Of a stretch of 50,129 nucleotides of DNA, positions 30,299 to 50,129 are shown piece by piece. The position numbers and the translations under genes are program-made. The notes under the pieces are model-generated. The model ran no database searches, was not told the DNA's origin, and worked only from the letters and a program-made list of their open reading frames with translations. The DNA comes from Methanoculleus methanifontis (GTDB lineage Archaea; Halobacteriota; Methanomicrobia; Methanomicrobiales; Methanoculleaceae), in assembly GCF_030464365.1 (NCBI RefSeq), contig NZ_VCYI01000018.1, positions 1 to 50,129 on the forward strand. The letters run 5' to 3'. Numbering within the stretch: the first letter of the stretch is position 1; the number at the start of each line of letters is the position of its first letter.

Positions 30299-31246
30299 TC
30301 AAATTATATCCCTGTATTCTCGTATCCTGCTTGACGAGGCGTATCCCCCGAGGACCCCGACGCCGAGAAACGGCGTGAGCACCCCTGCCCCGAAGACCAG
30401 CAGGAGTGATAGATCCTGCACGGTGCCGTCGATCAGGATTCTGCTGAGCAGGATGAGAAGCATCGGTGCGGCGCACGGGACCTTGACGATCGAGAACATC
30501 ATGCCCAGCACGAACAACCCGGCAAGGGTGGTCGCGTGCTTCCGTAACGATGACCGGACATAGTCGTCGGTGGAGACCGGGAGGCGTATCAACCCGAGCA
30601 GGTTCACCCCGGCGAGTATCGTGATCAGTCCCGCCGCGACGGCGAGATACGGGCCGAAACCGCCGAGCGACATCCCCGCCAGCAGGAAGCAGCATCCCAT
30701 GACGATATACGCGGCGACCAGCCCCAGGCCGAATATCAACGAATTCAGGAGACTGCTTTTCAATTCTTTGCCCGACCCGGTGACGTACACCAGTATGAAT
30801 CCGAGTATCGCCATCAGGCAGGGCGAAAACCCGGAGAGGAGGCCCAGAGAGTATGCAAACGGGATGTCCCAGTTTATCGGCGGCGAGTTCTCCTGCGGCT
30901 GCTCGCCGGCAAGGGACTGCTCGATCGCCGCCCTGAGGCTCTCCTCAGTTATCTCTTCCTTGGGGATTTTGACGGTGCCGTCCACAACCACGGCCGGGAC
31001 TTCGAGAAATGCGTATGCGTTCCATCGCTCCCATCCTTCCACGGTCTCGACGTCGATCCATTCGATTGTGAGGGCGCCGTCGTAGGCGCCTTCCAGGTCC
31101 GCGATCAGCGGATCGATGAACCTGCAGTCCGAGCACCGGTCCATGTGGTAGTATTCGAGGGAGACTGTTGAAGCCGCGGCTGCAGGAATGCACAACGTGC
31201 ACGCGATGAGCAGAACGGCAAGTGCCTGCACTGTTTTTACAACCAT
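30299..31246 (-). CDS. Thioredoxin-CcdA fusion, copy A (truncated by nonsense codon)
   Basis: Predicted membrane thiol-disulfide carrier of the CcdA/DsbD type that moves reducing equivalents across the membrane. The 315 residues have a signal peptide (1-25) and an extracytoplasmic thioredoxin-like domain (about 26-115) with the redox pair C38-x-x-C41 in MDRCSDCRFIDP. About six helices follow, carrying the CcdA cysteines in SGFSPCLMAILGF and VKVPCAAPMLL. ATG at 31246 has GGAGG 4 nt upstream. The protein ends at ...REYRDII; the paralogue at 47867 continues with one more helix. Last gene of the halocin-like module. Confidence 0.85.
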   Translation of the reverse strand: MVVKTVQALAVLLIACTLCIPAAAASTVSLEYYHMDRCSDCRFIDPLIADLEGAYDGALTIEWIDVETVEGWERWNAYAFLEVPAVVVDGTVKIPKEEITEESLRAAIEQSLAGEQPQENSPPINWDIPFAYSLGLLSGFSPCLMAILGFILVYVTGSGKELKSSLLNSLIFGLGLVAAYIVMGCCFLLAGMSLGGFGPYLAVAAGLITILAGVNLLGLIRLPVSTDDYVRSSLRKHATTLAGLFVLGMMFSIVKVPCAAPMLLILLSRILIDGTVQDLSLLLVFGAGVLTPFLGVGVLGGYASSSRIREYRDII

Positions 31247-31311
31247 GAGTCCTCCGCCCTTCGCAGAGGTGTGTGTAGAGCACATCGATCACTCCACAGG
31301 CCATCCATCGA

Positions 31312-31935
31312 TCATCGGTCCGTTCCCCTCGGAACCGATCGCCGTTCCCAGATATAGAGGATGGGAAAAGCAACGATACCAACAAGCACAATTCCCCGGA
31401 GAAGGGGGACAACGGGATACCCCAGTGCCAGATAGCGCAGAAGAACGATCATGGCTACTATGAGGTAGAAGACAACCGATCGCGCGAAGGTGATGCGGCG
31501 CTCCCCACCATCGATGAAGACGATGCGCGTCAGTAGCAGGCCGAGGAGGACGATGATGAGAAGCCAGAAGACCTGGTTGATGGAATACGCAAGGGACGCG
31601 TAGATATAGATCAGGAAGATCACGACGGCAAGGATGGCGTCGGTCACCTTCTCGACAACGACTCGCCTCTGCATCTTTCCTCCTTCCCTGTATCCGCTAA
31701 CCGGAGGGAACGATGGAGGATAGGTATGGGGTTTTGATCGTCCGGCTGCCTTTCGTCCATACCACACCATAATAGAGAAATATACTGCAGTGATCGTCAA
31801 TGCCAAGGGAAACAACAAGAACGCAGGTATTGGGAGGGGAGCTGTCGCGATGATGATAGCGACGATGATAATCGACACGAAAAAGACTACAACTGAGCGC
31901 CAGAGTGCCTCCTTGACGATAGGGTCGAGTTTCAT
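31312..31935 (-). CDS. Unknown 207-residue multi-pass membrane protein, copy A
   Basis: I do not recognise the family. It has about six hydrophobic segments: two near residues 13-57 (VVVFFVSIIIVAIIIAT and FLLFPLALTITAVYFSIMV), a charged loop 58-95, then four more to the C terminus. The tail WERRSVPRGTDR is basic. A close homologue lies at 48938 in the second island, also between the lipoprotein and the CcdA fusion. The start overlaps the lipoprotein stop by 4 nt (ATGA), so they are coupled. In a bacteriocin-like cassette it could be an immunity or export protein; that is inference. Confidence 0.75.
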   Translation of the reverse strand: MKLDPIVKEALWRSVVVFFVSIIIVAIIIATAPLPIPAFLLFPLALTITAVYFSIMVWYGRKAAGRSKPHTYPPSFPPVSGYREGGKMQRRVVVEKVTDAILAVVIFLIYIYASLAYSINQVFWLLIIVLLGLLLTRIVFIDGGERRITFARSVVFYLIVAMIVLLRYLALGYPVVPLLRGIVLVGIVAFPILYIWERRSVPRGTDR

Positions 31936-32603
31936 ATATACATCACCGACGCATCATCAGGAATCGTAAAGGTGAAATCACTATCATCTGCTGTGTAATT
32001 TATCGAATAATCTCGATATTCCAGGGTTAGCACTGGATTGCCCTTGTCCCAACTCTCCAGTTTCAACGGGATAAGACCATCGGGGTCGATCCACAGCAGA
32101 TATTCTCTCGTATCTTCGTTATCCGACTCGCGAGAAGCCAGTTCTATCTTATAAGCAGAGGTTGAGTAGTGCGACTCCATTTCTTGACCTATTACCATGT
32201 ATTTTTCAGAGATATTATCATTCAACAGCACATAGATCGCAGGTTCTGGTAGTTTCTCTGATGATGTCAGATTTCTAATGAACACTATATTTTTCTCAGG
32301 ATCATAGATCCAGACTATATCTCCATTAGAAGTAACCTCTGAGCGTATAAATGAGCCGCTCTTTTCGATTCTTCGAAATTTGTCCGGTTTCTTTAAAAGT
32401 ACATCATACTCGATAGTCTCCGTTTCATTTCCTATATATAAAGTAAGCTTCTCGATGTATGCCAGGCTCTCTACATTTGCCTGCTTTTCTGCGGCTTTTT
32501 GCAGAAGCGTATCCACATCTACGTCTGTTTCCAAACAACCGGAACAAACGAGTCCGAGTAATACGATAACCACTACAAATTGATAGCGCTGTTGTGTTGT
32601 CAT
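31932..32603 (-). CDS. LolA-like outer-leaflet lipoprotein, copy A
   Basis: Predicted lipoprotein of 223 residues. The signal peptide ends in LVCSGC; the mature part begins with a helix DTLLQKAAEKQANVESLAY. Beta-rich segments follow (DVLLKKPDKFRRIEKSG, WIYDPEKNIVFIRN, LEYRDYSINYT), the pattern of LolA/DUF2092-type lipoprotein-carrier folds that bind acyl or hydrophobic ligands. ATG at 32603 is preferred over GTG at 32615 since GGAG lies 6 nt upstream. The codons and bases are distinctly more AT-rich than in the neighbouring housekeeping genes. Copy B at 49558 is interrupted by an insertion sequence. Confidence 0.75.
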   Translation of the reverse strand: MTTQQRYQFVVVIVLLGLVCSGCLETDVDVDTLLQKAAEKQANVESLAYIEKLTLYIGNETETIEYDVLLKKPDKFRRIEKSGSFIRSEVTSNGDIVWIYDPEKNIVFIRNLTSSEKLPEPAIYVLLNDNISEKYMVIGQEMESHYSTSAYKIELASRESDNEDTREYLLWIDPDGLIPLKLESWDKGNPVLTLEYRDYSINYTADDSDFTFTIPDDASVMYI

Positions 32604-32636
32604 AGCACACTCCACAAAAAGAGGTGTTTACCTGAT

Positions 32637-33398
32637 TTACAGGCTGTCGTACATACATGCGGCTATTTCCACTCCTAAGCAAGCTACGGCAGGGGCGCAG
32701 GTATATGGAGTCATAAGAGCAACACATGGTTGTAACAACACTATACAAATTTCACAGACCGACACTCCAGGACAGGGGATTCCAGCAAGCGCACAGGCAC
32801 AATTCAGGGTGATACAGTAAACAACTCTTTGCCAGTAATCCGGGTCCTCATCTGTTACAAAGAGATGTTCCGACGTTTTCTGGATGAATGAGCCCTCGTC
32901 GATAATGGTTTCCGTGACCATATTTCCATTGGCGTCAATTATGCTGAACTCGAGTGTGTACAGAGACTTTTCCTGGAAAATACACGTGTACTTGAGTACC
33001 CGGGCATTGTCATCGTCCCAGACCGCAACGATGTTTGATGTCTGGACCAAACCGTCTTTTTCAATAACAGATTCGATGGGCAGTACTACAGCCGTTGCAT
33101 GCTTGATTGATCCGTCTTCAAGTTCCTTCTCGAAGGAGAATGCTTTCGCGTTGTCGACGATCATACTCAGATCTTCGGAACGTGGGATCTCTGAGAGTTT
33201 TTGCACCTCATTCAGGTTCAAAGCAGAAGCAACAACTTCGTACTTCTCCAGACCCGACAGATTGGTTTTTTGCAGGTCCAGTTCGGCATCGCCGCAAGGT
33301 GTTCCCGGTTCGCACGCCATCGCCGGCACCATCGCGACACTCACCAGCAGCACGGCGAAGAGCGTGGAGAGCGCCCGCATTCCAATGTTTCCGTTCAT
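32637..33398 (-). CDS. Secreted protein with ten-cysteine C-terminal domain (halocin C8-like precursor candidate)
   Basis: 253 residues with a Sec-type signal peptide (MNGNIGMRALSTLFAVLLVS, cleavage near 28). A charged mid-domain (50-190) includes a LNLNEVQKLSEIPRSEDL segment. The last 54 residues hold ten cysteines (195, 200, 202, 209, 215, 218, 225, 234, 240, 248) in a hydrophobic Gly/Ala-rich tract (CACALAGIPCPGVSVCEIC). Mature halocin C8 has ten cysteines in 76 residues and is released from the C terminus of a larger secreted precursor, so this is a plausible relative. A non-antimicrobial secreted protein is the alternative. ATG at 33398 has AGGAGG 7 nt upstream. It heads the module with the lipoprotein, membrane protein and CcdA fusion. 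Confidence 0.6.
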   Translation of the reverse strand: MNGNIGMRALSTLFAVLLVSVAMVPAMACEPGTPCGDAELDLQKTNLSGLEKYEVVASALNLNEVQKLSEIPRSEDLSMIVDNAKAFSFEKELEDGSIKHATAVVLPIESVIEKDGLVQTSNIVAVWDDDNARVLKYTCIFQEKSLYTLEFSIIDANGNMVTETIIDEGSFIQKTSEHLFVTDEDPDYWQRVVYCITLNCACALAGIPCPGVSVCEICIVLLQPCVALMTPYTCAPAVACLGVEIAACMYDSL

Positions 33399-33660
33399 TT
33401 ACTTTTCCTCCTATAACATCCCCGGAGGCAAAAGAGGCGCATCTTTAAGTACATTGAATGCAGACTACTCTTCTGCCTTCTGGGCTGTTTGGGGGTTCAT
33501 CCGGTCTTGGACGGATGGGATGAACCTCCCTCATTTTTCAAACGCCATTTCCGGCATCCGCATAGGGACGTAGATGTCAATCTATTTATCTTTTCTGTCC
33601 AATCTCTCTACACGTCCGTCGGTTGTTCGCAAAACCGGGGTTTTCGATCCCATCCCGGGG
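33399..33660 (-). promoter_or_regulatory. Conserved promoter and hairpin leader of halocin-like gene (U1)
   Basis: The TATA candidate GATAAATAG (minus strand, about 33582-33590) predicts a leader of about 160 nt. Just upstream of it sits the motif TCTNTACAYGTCC...GCAAAA...CGATCC (plus-strand reading, 33604-33650), also found at 46.7, 47.7 and 44.35 kb. The leader contains a hairpin with arms GGTTCATCC (33494-33502) and GGATGAACC (33518-33526); an alternative stem CATCCG/CGGATG uses overlapping bases. The U2 leader has the same hairpin with one compensatory pair change. Confidence 0.55.
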
Positions 33661-34188
33661 GTCGGGGGCGCGGGAGAATGGCCGGTCTTGCGGCGGGATC
33701 GGATATCGTACCAACTCGCTCCCTCCGGTGCGCGCCGCGATTTCCGGGTGCGGAGGACAGAAAAAACCGTTATAATCTACGCCCCGCAAGAACGGCCGCG
33801 TCGGGCACAGGGGACCGCCGCGCGCCCTGCCGCAGGCGTCGGAGCAGGGAGGTTTCAGGCCGCCCGGCGCCATCGACCACCGCTTTCTCCGGTAGAACTT
33901 TACACCTGAAACTTCACGTGTAGCATTGCCTCATGCGACGTGCGGCATTCCACAGGAACGGAACATGAGAAGACCGAATATCTTCAGATGACCGGGGGGA
34001 GGACAACCTCAAAAGCATTCTTCAAGCCCTGAGCCAAAGGCAAAAAACGGCACCAAAAATACCACAGCAAAGAAGAAGAGATGGCATGCAATATATCACA
34101 GCAATATTAATAACCGCAGTGATAAACAAACACACCACTCAAGGCGGGCAGCAGCGATGCGTGGTAAGTACCCGCCTATTGGGGAGTA
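33661..34188. other. Intergenic region upstream of tpiA
   Basis: No gene is supported. GC-rich to about 33920, then an A-rich stretch. A stem AGGCGGG (34142-34148) / CCCGCCT (34171-34177) with a 22-nt loop ends 3 nt before the GGGGAG ribosome site of tpiA and could form a structured leader. TATTAATAAC near 34105 is a TATA candidate for tpiA. The 21-nt tract at 33718-33738 (CGCTCCCTCCGGTGCGCGCC core) also occurs at about 48947. Confidence 0.4.
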
Positions 34189-45215: not shown

Positions 45216-46496
45216 CTAAGATGAACCACTTCCACTACAGTAGGTGTGTGTATAGATTATACCCGACCCGGTTGAATACGACGTGCTCACATAAGAATCG
45301 TGTTGCCGGTCGTAGTACGAGAATACATCTGCCGGTCTGTCCCAGGTACTTCCCTGCCTGCACCATTCATCCATTATCGGCGATGTGCGTGCATCAAAGG
45401 AAAAGGTCGAGTCGTCCCAGAGCAATAACTCCGAGGACCCTACACTTCGCTTGATGAATTGACTCGGATCGCTATCATCATCGTAATAATAGTACCCCAG
45501 CCATTCTTCGGTTGTCGTATCCTGGAGCCAGATCTCATATTTCCCCAACGTGGAACCACTACCGATCAGTACGTAGTAATTATACTCGTGAGGGAGGGAT
45601 GATCTGGATACGTCGATATACGGGTCGGGACCCGGATAAATCAGAGAACCTTCGTCATATACTACCGGATATAACTTGATGTTCCCCACTCCGGGAAGGG
45701 CATCTTCGTACTCGACAACAATTTCAATTGTGTCAAGGGGTTCCCCTGATGCATCGAAACGGTTTAAATTTATCTCTCTTTCCTGGAAAATCGTGTATCT
45801 AGCTCCGGAATTTGAATAGTAGTATGGCCTAATTTTCCCTGTAAGATATGTAACTTCATTTCCTGAATCGGCCCTAAACCTTACTCTGGAGAGGTATTGC
45901 TGCCCATCACGTTCCATGTTAACTTCAAGTGAATTAATCACCGCTAGATCGCTATCTGATAATTTGGATCGAGAGCTGCTTGCGGTGTTCTCCGGGTGCT
46001 GTCGGTAATAAGTACTGATATCTGTATAATGTGAAAAATATTCCAGCGGGAAACTCAGGTCGATGCAACCAGGGTCTCCATTCAATGCCCTTAACATTGT
46101 ATCAGGTATTGTTAATACTGCTACAGGGTCATCTTCAGCAATTCCTACCTGTATTAGGTAATCCGGAGATTTTTCTACAGAACAATCCGATTCTCCAAAT
46201 GCGGAGAAGGGAAGAGATAATTCAACGATTCCGGGGGATTGCAGTCCTACCTGTTTTGTAACATATGCTTCGGATAGGATGATCGTCGTTAGGTCGGATC
46301 CTGTCATTGCCGACGCTGGCTCGACACCGCTCCAGTCAAAGAGGGGAGGTTGGACACTATCAACCAATCGAAACGTTGTATTATGGGGTTCTGCCTGGGG
46401 GTTGTTCGTTGCACTCACCACTGACACAACACCCGCGCTCACCAGCAACACAGCAAAGAGCGCGGAGAGTGCCCGCATTCCAATCTTTCCATTCAT
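45216..46496 (-). CDS. Large secreted protein sharing signal peptide with halocin-like precursor
   Basis: 426 residues with signal peptide MNGKIGMRALSALFAVLLVS, which differs from that of the gene at 32637 by only two residues over the same twenty. After it the two proteins diverge. The mature part is acidic and rich in Tyr, Ser and Asp, with beta-type segments (DTIEIVVEYEDALPGVGNIK, YYVLIGSGSTLGKYEIWLQD) and five cysteines, three of them in the last 60 residues or so. No family recognised. It is markedly AT-richer than the housekeeping genes. ATG at 46496 has AGGAGG 7 nt upstream. Promoter and leader (46497-46760) are homologous to U1. Confidence 0.7.
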   Translation of the reverse strand: MNGKIGMRALSALFAVLLVSAGVVSVVSATNNPQAEPHNTTFRLVDSVQPPLFDWSGVEPASAMTGSDLTTIILSEAYVTKQVGLQSPGIVELSLPFSAFGESDCSVEKSPDYLIQVGIAEDDPVAVLTIPDTMLRALNGDPGCIDLSFPLEYFSHYTDISTYYRQHPENTASSSRSKLSDSDLAVINSLEVNMERDGQQYLSRVRFRADSGNEVTYLTGKIRPYYYSNSGARYTIFQEREINLNRFDASGEPLDTIEIVVEYEDALPGVGNIKLYPVVYDEGSLIYPGPDPYIDVSRSSLPHEYNYYVLIGSGSTLGKYEIWLQDTTTEEWLGYYYYDDDSDPSQFIKRSVGSSELLLWDDSTFSFDARTSPIMDEWCRQGSTWDRPADVFSYYDRQHDSYVSTSYSTGSGIIYTHTYCSGSGSS

Positions 46497-46760
46497 TTGC
46501 TTTCCTCCTGTAACGTTCCCGGAGGCAGAAGAGGCACAACCTTAATGTACATGGAATGCGAACTATTCCTTCGCCTTCGGGCAGTGGGGGGGCTCATCCG
46601 GTCTTGGACGGATGGGGTGAGCCTCCGCGGTTTTGCGAACGCTGTTTTGAGCATCTGCATATGGGGATAGACCCGGGCCTATATAGCATTTCTCTCACAA
46701 TCATCTACATGTCCATTGGCCGTTTGTGAAAGTGAGACGATCGATCCGGCGGCAGGGAGC
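46497..46760 (-). promoter_or_regulatory. Conserved promoter and hairpin leader of secreted-protein gene (U2)
   Basis: The TATA candidate GCTATATAGGC (minus strand, about 46678-46688) gives a leader near 160 nt. The upstream motif CATCTACATGTCC...CGATCC spans 46702-46745. The leader repeats the U1 hairpin: arms GGCTCATCC (46592-46600) and GGGTGAGCC (46616-46624) replace GGTTCATCC and GGATGAACC, with a T-A to C-G compensatory change in the third pair. The remaining 46761-46938 has no gene that I can support. Confidence 0.55.
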
Positions 46761-47866: not shown

Positions 47867-48871
47867 TTACCCCCAGAAGATGAGCCAGACCCCGAATCCT
47901 ATCAACAGGATCCCGCTTCCCGCTCGAATAACGTCCCTGTACTCCCGTATCCTGCTTGATGAGGCGTATCCACCGAGGACTCCGACGCCGAGAAACGGCG
48001 TGAGCACCCCGGCTCCGAAGACCAGCAGGAGCGATAAATCCTGTACGGTGCCGTCGATCAGGATTCTGCTCAGCAGGACGAGGAGCATCGGTGCGGCGCA
48101 CGGGGCCTTGACGATTGAAAATATCATGCCCAGAATGAACAACCCGGCAAGCGTGGTTGCATGCTTCCGTATGGATGACTTAACGTAGTCGTCCGCGGAG
48201 ATCGGGAGTTTTATCAACCCAAGCAGGTTCACCCCGGTGAGTATCGTGATCAGTCCTGCCGCGACGGCGAGGTACGGACCGAAACCACCAAGGGACATCC
48301 CTGCCAGCAGGAAGCAGCACCCCAGGACGATATACGCGGCTACCAGCCCCAGACCGAATATTACAGAGTTCAGGAGACTGCTTCTCAGCCCTTTGCCCGA
48401 CCCGGTGACGTACACCAGTATGAATCCGAGTATTGCCATCAGGCAGGGTGAGAACCCGGAGAAAAGGCCCAGGGAGAATGCAAACGGGATATTCCAGTTA
48501 ATCGGCGGCGAGTTCTCCTGCGGCTCAGCACCGGCAAGGGACTGCTCGATCGCCGCCCTGAGGTTCTCGTCGGTGATCTCCTCTTTGGGAATTGTGACGG
48601 TGCCGTTCACGACTACGGCCGGGACTTCGAGAAATGCGTACGCGTTCCATCGCTCCCAACTGTCCACAGTCTCGACGTCGATCCATTCGATCGTGAGGGC
48701 GCCGTCGTAGGTGCTTTCCAGGTCCGCAATCAGCGGATCAGTCAGTTTGCAGTCCGGGCACCGGTCCATGTGGTAGTATTCGAGGGGGATCGTTGAGGCC
48801 GCGACTGCAGGAATGCACAGAGTGCATGCGATGAGCAGAGCGGCAAGCACCTGCACTGCCTTTACGGTCAT
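47867..48871 (-). CDS. Thioredoxin-CcdA fusion, copy B (intact)
   Basis: Full-length paralogue of the gene at 30299: 334 residues, signal peptide 1-25, redox pair C38-x-x-C41 in MDRCPDCKLTDP, then a CcdA domain with SGFSPCLMAILGF and VKAPCAAPMLL. An extra C-terminal helix GSGILLIGFGVWLIFWG is lost in copy A. Role as for copy A: it passes electrons from cytoplasmic thioredoxin to extracytoplasmic disulfides. ATG at 48871, 66 nt downstream of the membrane protein copy B. Identity to copy A is very high, so duplication is recent. Confidence 0.88.
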   Translation of the reverse strand: MTVKAVQVLAALLIACTLCIPAVAASTIPLEYYHMDRCPDCKLTDPLIADLESTYDGALTIEWIDVETVDSWERWNAYAFLEVPAVVVNGTVTIPKEEITDENLRAAIEQSLAGAEPQENSPPINWNIPFAFSLGLFSGFSPCLMAILGFILVYVTGSGKGLRSSLLNSVIFGLGLVAAYIVLGCCFLLAGMSLGGFGPYLAVAAGLITILTGVNLLGLIKLPISADDYVKSSIRKHATTLAGLFILGMIFSIVKAPCAAPMLLVLLSRILIDGTVQDLSLLLVFGAGVLTPFLGVGVLGGYASSSRIREYRDVIRAGSGILLIGFGVWLIFWG

Positions 48872-48937
48872 GAGCCCTCTACCTCTCACAGGGGTGCGCA
48901 GAACACATCGATCACTCTGCTGGTCATCCATCAGCCA

Positions 48938-49561
48938 TCAATCCGCTCCCTCCGGTGCGCGCCGTCGTTCCCAGATATAGAGGATGGGAAAAGCAACGAT
49001 ACCAACAAGCGCGATTGCCTGGAGGAGGGGGAGAACGGGGTACCCCAGTACCAGGTAGCGCAGAAGGACGATCCCAGTTGCTCCGAGGTAGAAGATGGCC
49101 GATCGTGCGAAGGTGATGTGGCGCTCCCCACCATCAATGAAGACGATGCGCGTCAGAAGCAGGCCGAGGATGACAAGGACAGGGAGCCAGAATATCTGGT
49201 TGATGGAGTATGCAAGGGACGCATAGCTATAGATCAGGAAGATCGTGACAAGAAGGGCGGCGTCGGTCATCTTCTCAACGATGCCTCTTCTCCGTGCTGT
49301 CTTCTTTTCTCCGCGCTTCCCCAGTCGAAACGCATGACGAAGGATATTCGCGGGATTGGGGTCGGTCAGGCCTTCTTTTCGTCTATACCACACCATAACG
49401 CAGGCGACTATTGCAGCGATCATCAATGGCAGGGGTAAGAGCAAAAAAGCTGGCAATGGGAGGTAGTCTGTTGTGATGATGTAAGCGATGACGATAAGCG
49501 AGATTCCAAAGGTTGCAACTGAACGCCACAACTCTTCTTTGGCAATAGTATCAATCTTCAT
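48938..49561 (-). CDS. Unknown 207-residue membrane protein, copy B
   Basis: Paralogue of the gene at 31312, the same length to the residue, with the same six hydrophobic segments and conserved blocks FLIYSYASLAYSINQIFWLP, LLLTRIVFIDGGERHITFAR and AFPILYIWERR. The middle loop (58-95) differs most between copies. Its start overlaps the broken lipoprotein gene by 4 nt (ATGA). The function is unknown; its strict place between lipoprotein and CcdA fusion in both copies argues for a joint role. Confidence 0.75.
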   Translation of the reverse strand: MKIDTIAKEELWRSVATFGISLIVIAYIITTDYLPLPAFLLLPLPLMIAAIVACVMVWYRRKEGLTDPNPANILRHAFRLGKRGEKKTARRRGIVEKMTDAALLVTIFLIYSYASLAYSINQIFWLPVLVILGLLLTRIVFIDGGERHITFARSAIFYLGATGIVLLRYLVLGYPVLPLLQAIALVGIVAFPILYIWERRRAPEGAD

Positions 49562-50003
49562 GCGTACACCACCGATGCGCCATCGGGAATCGTGAACGTG
49601 AACTCATCATCATTTATCACGCAATTCATTGAGTAATTTCGATATTCCAGGGTTAGCACCAGATTGCCCTTATCGTAACTCTGCAGTTTTAACGGGGTCA
49701 TATTTTTGGAGTCGATCCACAATACGTACTCTTTTGTGTTGTCCTCGCGGTCCAACTCGTGAGGAGTCAGTTTTACTTTATAGACCGGAATTGAGTTGAT
49801 TGATTCTATCCCTTGTTCCTCTACCGTGTAATTTTTAGTAATGTTGTCGGTCAGTAATGTGTAGATCGCAGGCGCTGGTCTCTTTTCAGATGGTGTCAAG
49901 TGTCTTACGAGCACATTATTTTTCTCCGGATCATAGATCCAGACGACATCTCCATTTGAAACGATCTTCAAGCGTGTAAAAGAGTCACTTTTTTCAATCT
50001 TTC
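49558..50003 (-). pseudogene. LolA-like lipoprotein, copy B, cut by insertion sequence
   Basis: The C-terminal 148 residues match copy A: RKIEKSDSFTRLKIVSNGD aligns with RRIEKSGSFIRSEVTSNGD, then WIYDPEKN, LEYRNYSMN and FTFTIPDGASVVYA. Upstream of RKIEKS the homology stops exactly where the insertion-sequence end begins (about 50004), so the signal peptide and first third are missing from this side. A short frame starting at TTG 49971 is open but is not a natural start. The rest may lie beyond the element. Confidence 0.75.
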
Positions 50004-50129
50004 GGCTCTGTTGAAACCCTCTAGTCGAGGGTCGGCTCCATCTGAGGGGAAAGATCTATAAAACCGTTGCTCCTTGTGTTAATGACGAAACCAACAACAA
50101 GGAGCAGAGTTAGTGTCGACGAATGGCTA
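50004..50129 (+). mobile_element. Left end of an insertion sequence
   Basis: Begins GGCTCTGTTGAAACCC at the point where the lipoprotein homology ends. A CCCTC/GAGGG hairpin lies at about 50017-50031, then a TATA-like TCTATAAAA (50055-50063) and the start of an open frame at 50082. The terminal sequence recurs, inverted, at 17318-17335. IS family not identified. Confidence 0.6.
50082..50129 (+). CDS. Transposase N terminus (partial, runs off the window)
   Basis: ATG at 50082 opens MTKPTTRSRVSVDEWL and remains open to the last base. It sits about 80 nt inside the inferred IS end and about 20 nt after a TATA-like box, with no ribosome site, so a leaderless transposase mRNA is likely. Only 16 residues are visible and no transposase motif can be seen; the call rests on position. 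Confidence 0.45.
   Translation, partial: MTKPTTRSRVSVDEWL

Follow-up and report, generated by a model that had tools for sequence, protein, structure and literature searches.

A candidate halocin-C8-like secreted peptide operon with thioredoxin-CcdA and lipoprotein partners in Methanoculleus methanifontis and other methanogens

The four-gene operon and its cysteine-rich precursor

We have analysed a stretch of 50,129 nucleotides (nt) from Methanoculleus methanifontis (hereafter the window; positions 1 to 50,129 of contig NZ_VCYI01000018.1, forward strand, assembly GCF_030464365.1), which comprises one whole contig of a 2.6-Mb genome and in which 46 genes were called. Our analyses concern an operon of four minus-strand genes that encode, in this order, a secreted precursor with a cysteine-rich (Cys-rich) tail, a lipoprotein, a membrane protein (P3) and a fusion of a secreted thioredoxin with the electron carrier CcdA (Trx-CcdA). 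In operon order the genes are spaced by a 21 nt gap, a 4-nt overlap and a 26 nt gap, and the four co-directional genes with short gaps or overlaps that were reported in a preliminary description of this DNA are thus all present. The features of the operon are listed below; G and L numbers designate genomes and loci, respectively, and C6 is another contig of the M. methanifontis genome.

32637..33398, minus strand: pre-pro-peptide gene P0001, 253 amino acids (aa), consisting of a signal peptide, a pro-domain and a ten-Cys tail; orthologs in G011, G030, G024, G035 and G173
33315..33398, minus strand: signal peptide, residues 1-28 (...VPAMA, then C), also present on numerous further proteins secreted in this genus
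32844..33293, minus strand: pro-domain, residues 36-185, with a helix-loop-helix at 49-69, homologous to the halocin-C8-type pro-region
32640..32816, minus strand: Cys-rich C-terminal peptide, residues 195-253, with ten Cys, of a tail family distinct from TIGR04449
31932..32615, minus strand: LolA/DUF2092-like lipoprotein P0002, lipobox ...GLVCSGC, accompanying the precursor in 5/5 family genomes
31312..31935, minus strand: multi-pass membrane protein P3 (P0003), a candidate immunity protein
30299..31285, minus strand: secreted thioredoxin-CcdA fusion P0004, C-terminal helix lost, likely start at 31246
33397..33574, minus strand: conserved structured leader upstream of the precursor (model R1)

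The ten Cys of the tail (positions 195, 200, 202, 209, 215, 218, 225, 234, 240, and 248) lie within exactly 54 residues, in agreement with the preliminary description, and three further Cys (C29, C35, and C139) are located upstream of the tail. The chance of finding ten Cys in a 54-aa stretch is ~9e-10 (at 1.2% Cys), the other called genes of the window do not exceed 7 Cys per 54 aa, and a chance origin of the cluster was rejected since it is conserved by the orthologs. A comparison of this C-terminal region with the halocin C8-like domain model, which had been proposed as a check, gave no match: the precursor had no match to TIGR04449 in a scan of NCBIfam at expectation values (E) up to 10, and a search of its own genome with TIGR04449 gave no match at E up to 1. 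The presence of ten Cys in a C-terminal segment of ~60-76 residues is a trait that the window protein shares with TIGR04449, but the spacing of the Cys differs and, as judged from its sequence, the tail represents a new family that lies outside the halocin C8 domain family in its present definition. Matches of the precursor to VirC2, BriC and Clenterotox in Pfam and NCBIfam (E 0.002-0.05) were judged to be due to chance. In an AlphaFold model the pro-domain is predicted with moderate confidence and contains a helix-loop-helix at residues 49-69 with a predicted local distance difference test (pLDDT) score of ~80-86; a Foldseek search of the precursor model against the PDB yielded nothing at E < 0.001.

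The identification of the last gene as an extracytoplasmic thioredoxin fused to CcdA is confirmed by matches of its CcdA core to DsbD_2 (PF13386, 4.9e-10) and DsbD_TM (PF02683, 5.9e-7) and by its CxxC motif. The membrane cysteines C156 and C271 of the CcdA core, C51 and C54 of the CxxC motif and the cis-proline P97 of the thioredoxin domain are invariant in 12 aligned sequences; taken by itself, the thioredoxin domain gives weak profile matches that do not reach the cut-off. Like the family of CcdA/DsbD carriers, P0004 thus has a CcdA core with both membrane cysteines, but it differs from them in its fusion to a secreted thioredoxin and in its genomic setting, next to the gene for a peptide precursor and not among cytochrome c genes; a role in cytochrome c maturation was rejected, as no such genes were recognised nearby. 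The lipoprotein P0002, with the lipobox ...LVCSGC at the end of its signal, matches both DUF2092 (3.4e-7) and LolA (7.6e-6) over the Pfam cut-offs, and differs from LolA in that there is no outer membrane for it to serve. P3 is a membrane protein that matches no family.

Relationship to halocin C8 and recurrence of the gene set

The relationship of the precursor to halocin C8-type proteins is found in its pro-region. With the signal peptide removed, this region is homologous to methanogen halocin-type precursors (hhalign P = 2e-6, against a profile in which five of the seven sequences carry TIGR04449 tails), and tblastn searches with the precursor matched loci L138 (4.5e-11) and L139 (3.9e-6), both with tails other than TIGR04449, and more weakly L137 (0.016), which has a TIGR04449 tail. 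TIGR04449 itself is found above its cut-off of 24 bits in 25/393 genomes of the phylum, and the matches include L110, which from its sequence we take to be HalC8 itself. The pro-domain model also has matches in 25/393 phylum genomes, in proteins that mostly end in several kinds of Cys-rich tail, TIGR04449 being one of these kinds and the window tail another. The homology of the pro-region together with the mismatch of the tail places the precursor in the wider halocin-C8-type set by its pro-region, and not in the TIGR04449 family by its tail. The earlier designation of the protein as a halocin C8-like precursor therefore holds for the pro-region and for the operon partners, which recur, and fails for the tail.

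Like halocin C8, whose precursor ProC8 is made up of HalI and HalC8, the window protein is a secreted precursor in which a pro/immunity region at the N-terminus is followed by a hydrophobic ten-Cys peptide at the C-terminus, and the pro-region begins with a similar helix-loop-helix. The N-terminal helix-loop-helix of HalI is needed for halocin C8 immunity, according to the work as cited in a later article (Mei, 2008, cited in PMC11509114). The two systems differ in that the Cys of the window tail are spaced otherwise and the tail does not match the profile, and in that the window precursor has a Sec-type signal followed by Cys, in place of the Tat signal of halocin C8. The connection is most evident in G325, from another family of the Methanomicrobiales, in which a precursor with a genuine TIGR04449 domain (over the cut-off) has the leader and signal peptide of the window operon and stands ahead of genes for a LolA-like lipoprotein and a P3 relative (56%) and of a ccdA remnant, so that a methanogen TIGR04449 precursor has leader, signal peptide and partner genes in common with the window operon.

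A survey of related genomes has identified the complete four-gene operon, in the same order, in four more genomes of the genus (viz. G011, G030, G024, and G035), which bears out the co-occurrence anticipated in the preliminary description. Precursor and lipoprotein are essentially full length in 5/40 family genomes, always together, P3 is present in 26/40 and Trx-CcdA in 14/40. A complete operon with the same tail is also found in Methanosarcina G173 (L208; identity 41% for the precursor, 33.5% for the lipoprotein, 34% for P3, and 45% for CcdA), where genes two and three overlap by 4 nt as they do in the window, and TIGR04449 precursors of Methanosarcina and Methanolobus adjoin Trx-CcdA, the lipoprotein and sometimes P3. 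Among the named genomes, 13/23 Trx-CcdA loci have a halocin-type or Cys-rich precursor on the same strand at a distance of less than 3 kb; the other 10 comprise 6 Methanoculleus-group loci without a precursor, 1 deletion scar, 1 locus with P3 only and 2 loci cut by contig ends. Thioredoxin domains adjoin precursors in another form as well. In G042 a lipoprotein that carries a thioredoxin at its C-terminus (PF17131, 3.9e-14; PF00085, 9.5e-10) adjoins precursors, and a VKOR-like protein (2.2e-6, below cut-off) is also encoded; in G123 the lipoprotein that adjoins a precursor ends in a glutaredoxin/thioredoxin-like domain (4.8e-5).

L214, 8932-10251 and 10241-10555, and L141, 5996-6997: thioredoxin-lipoprotein fusions beside Cys-rich precursors; one of the genomes also encodes a small VKOR-like protein

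Two further observations concern the distribution of these genes. In Methanoculleus sp. NL_3.1 (L097 7835-9175 and L098 7434-8786) Trx-CcdA follows a secreted protein of ~450 aa with a peptidase-like HE..H motif (HEIYHLYGALDEY), that of L098 having no Pfam match, and is also preceded by an immunoglobulin-like membrane protein. A typical methanogen precursor-lipoprotein-CcdA cluster is present in L204 (JAGLZA010000417.1), which has been binned as candidate division WOR-3 and is probably mis-binned.

The M. methanifontis genome contains a second copy of the operon, which is divided between two contigs: one part (47867-50003) lies at the right end of the window, and the remainder is on contig C6, where a precursor with twelve tail cysteines is encoded at the contig end. 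The break between the contigs is due to the insertion of an insertion sequence (IS) in the lipoprotein gene of this copy.

47867..48931, minus strand: second copy, intact Trx-CcdA, 86% identical
48938..49561, minus strand: second copy, P3, 63% identical
49558..50003, minus strand: second copy, 3' part of the IS-cut lipoprotein gene; the 5' part and the precursor are at C6:86226-87267
50004..50129, no strand assigned: terminal part of the IS insertion, which has the terminal repeat GGCTCTGTTGAA and a 9-bp target duplication, GAAAGATTG; its other side is found where contig C6 (L040) ends

Other copies of the operon carry lesions of one kind each, viz. a frameshift just past the signal of the precursor in G011 (L037 9053-9147), a frameshift of ccdA in G035 (L041 11382-12465), a large deletion in G008 (L093) and the truncated ccdA of the window (30299-30340), and these differing single lesions point to rapid decay or turnover. 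The deletion in G008 extends from the start of the precursor, and what remains is P3 in part and a ccdA that contains one stop; Methanosarcina sp. DH2 (L193) has kept P3 and CcdA and no longer has the precursor or an intact gene for the lipoprotein. P3 is the best candidate for an immunity protein because it outlives the precursor, both in these two genomes and in the family as a whole (26/40 vs 5/40 genomes). It may derive from a DUF1673-like family, as relatives without a precursor in other Methanoculleus genomes (L102 2587-3348 and L103 5120-5881) lie within clusters of DUF1673-like proteins, which have an LGWCP motif at the N-terminus.

The structured leader and sRNA162

The precursor gene is preceded by a leader of ~180 nt that recurs ahead of many unrelated genes for secreted proteins with the same signal peptide, the DNA that codes for this signal peptide being shared as well. 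A covariance model detects it in 31/35 genomes of the genus, with 1-20 copies in each, and a second copy is located in the window.

46494..46671, minus strand: second leader copy, ahead of an unrelated 426-aa secreted protein (45216-46496)

The fold of the leader is better than that of shuffled sequences (z = -3.9). In 22 distinct copies standard pairs occupy 84% of the pair cells, compared with 41-49% in slid controls, and both sides have changed in 7/9 pairs of helix 1; the alignment from which this covariation is read was partly used in model building and fitted to the structure, and is thus biased towards structure. RNAalifold gave a poor structure for 30 sequence-aligned leaders, because two leader types misalign, and the covariance model was used instead. 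The leader family has no match in Rfam. We regard the leader as a candidate regulon-wide RNA element.

In Methanosarcina the leaders of the precursors are associated with a known RNA. At all three loci examined, sRNA162 (RF02792) is antisense to the leader of the precursor (7/7 precursors), as follows.

L138, 8366-8557 and 2042-2242: sRNA162, antisense to the precursor leader
L139, 7051-7239, 11939-12127 and 16588-16775: sRNA162, antisense to the precursor leader
L208, 6833-7022 and 11178-11366: sRNA162, antisense to the precursor leader

These positions suggest that the cis target of the published sRNA162 is a halocin-type precursor. A protein with a PPC domain and a helix-turn-helix (HTH) regulator are encoded near the operon in both Methanosarcina and Methanoculleus, and this pair is taken to be of the MM2440-MM2441 type; by its place in the gene order, MM2442 would be one of these precursors. 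The Methanosarcina loci, with precursors, antisense sRNA162 and the PPC/HTH pair nearby, thus resemble the MM2440-MM2441/sRNA162/MM2442 locus of M. mazei, and a like pair is present in Methanoculleus. The window leader, though of similar architecture, differs in having no match to RF02792 (region 33300-33800, E up to 5).

Proposed function and alternative explanations

On balance we favour the interpretation that the operon encodes a methanogen system for a secreted peptide of the halocin-C8-like type, distinguished by a new tail family and by extracytoplasmic redox and lipoprotein partners of its own. The halocin-C8-like kind of system is known and the tail family and the gene arrangement are new, an assessment that the sequence comparisons largely support; a search of the available literature found no paper that joins halocin C8 with CcdA or thioredoxin, the novelty of this association being uncertain since an earlier description is possible.

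From the gene content and homologies we infer the following account of export topology, of cleavage and disulfides, and of the activity of the peptide, its target and the immunity to it. The pre-pro-protein would be exported, and its pro-domain, with a helix-loop-helix like that of HalI, would silence the C-terminal peptide and may give self-protection. Proteolysis would free a hydrophobic ten-Cys peptide of ~6 kDa, probably an antimicrobial, which would attack competing archaea, with the membrane as its most likely site of action. The peptide would undergo thiol-disulfide exchange, for isomerisation or proofreading, with the secreted thioredoxin, which is kept reduced from the cytoplasm via CcdA, the LolA-like lipoprotein would hold or pass on the hydrophobic precursor at the cell surface, and P3 in the membrane would be the likeliest immunity protein. 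By analogy, the sublancin operon of Bacillus also encodes a disulfide-containing secreted antimicrobial peptide beside its own thiol-disulfide oxidoreductases, BdbA and BdbB, although sublancin is a bacterial glycopeptide with ATP-binding cassette (ABC) export and oxidising enzymes, and has no sequence relation to the proteins described here.

A number of observations weigh against this interpretation. The tail shows no relationship to a profile of 19 halocin C8 domains (hhalign probability 0.5; hmmsearch --max E = 6), its structure is not predictable (AlphaFold pLDDT <50), and the link of the pro-region to the haloarchaeal HalI is weak (P = 0.008 directly and 2e-4 via methanogen precursors). 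None of the partners (lipoprotein, P3 and Trx-CcdA) is present at the haloarchaeal HalC8 loci examined, and as haloarchaeal halocin C8 works without them, the partners are not required for general activity. CcdA is a reducing pathway that by itself makes no disulfides, so that either isomerisation or keeping the tail reduced until release is possible. The window CcdA itself ends early (...REYRDII followed by TGA, with one T missing after it) and has lost its last helix, eleven aligned relatives running ~20 residues further (IRAGSGILLIGFGVWLIFWG), and the P3 orphans in DUF1673-like clusters may have another role. Lastly, six Methanoculleus-group CcdA loci lack a halocin-type precursor, most of them being preceded by another secreted protein, and for this reason CcdA may serve the whole regulon that shares the leader.

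This last point leads to a different explanation, which we consider unlikely, that Trx-CcdA serves a large secretome regulon as its general thiol reductase outside the cytoplasm, with the Cys-rich precursor as one of several clients. In G018, G027, G029 (at two loci) and G019, CcdA trails different Cys-containing secreted proteins, often with the shared signal peptide, and the leader that precedes the precursor is present in up to 20 copies per genome. The term dedicated, which the preliminary description applied to the redox partner, is therefore too strong, as the same Trx-CcdA trails other secreted proteins in Methanoculleus, several of them with the same signal peptide. Outside Methanoculleus, however, Trx-CcdA is almost exclusively associated with such precursors: at 11/12 loci of the Methanosarcinaceae type it lies less than 3 kb from a Cys-rich halocin-type precursor, and the twelfth retains the deletion scar of one. 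Moreover, the thioredoxin-lipoprotein fusion beside precursors is hard to account for by a general reductase.

Equally improbable, in our assessment, is that the precursor is a surface Cys-rich adhesin, a metal-binding peptide or a redox sensor under the control of sRNA162-like RNAs, with no role in competition. The mismatch of the tail with the halocin model is consistent with such a role, and the methanogen members are without any demonstrated activity; but the tails on the conserved pro-region are of varying kind, the precursor genes decay fast while P3 and CcdA stay, and adjacent units with differing tails occur at one place (L139 and L208). Variety of tails, fast decay of precursors and clustering of units are typical of conflict systems, and not of structural or metal-binding proteins.

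The recurrence of the halocin-C8-like gene set in distant methanogens looks like that of a real, largely undescribed family of archaeal peptide weapons, and we know of essentially no peptide antibiotics from methanogens. More tentatively, and with rather less confidence than we place in the halocin-C8-like nature of the operon, these loci may constitute a polymorphic peptide-toxin system that is widespread in methanogens, in which a conserved HalI-like pro-domain is combined with exchangeable Cys-rich tails, folding or silencing is performed by dedicated Trx-CcdA or thioredoxin-lipoprotein/VKOR-like proteins, and control is exerted by sRNA162-type antisense RNA and structured leaders. If this is true, the classic sRNA162 of M. 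mazei has a bacteriocin as its cis target. The operon poses the question of why the disulfide peptide of an anaerobe needs an extracellular reducing pathway, and, together with its link to the best-studied archaeal antisense RNA, it makes archaeal antagonism in anaerobic communities such as digesters and sediments testable, with Methanosarcina as a genetically tractable genus for such tests.

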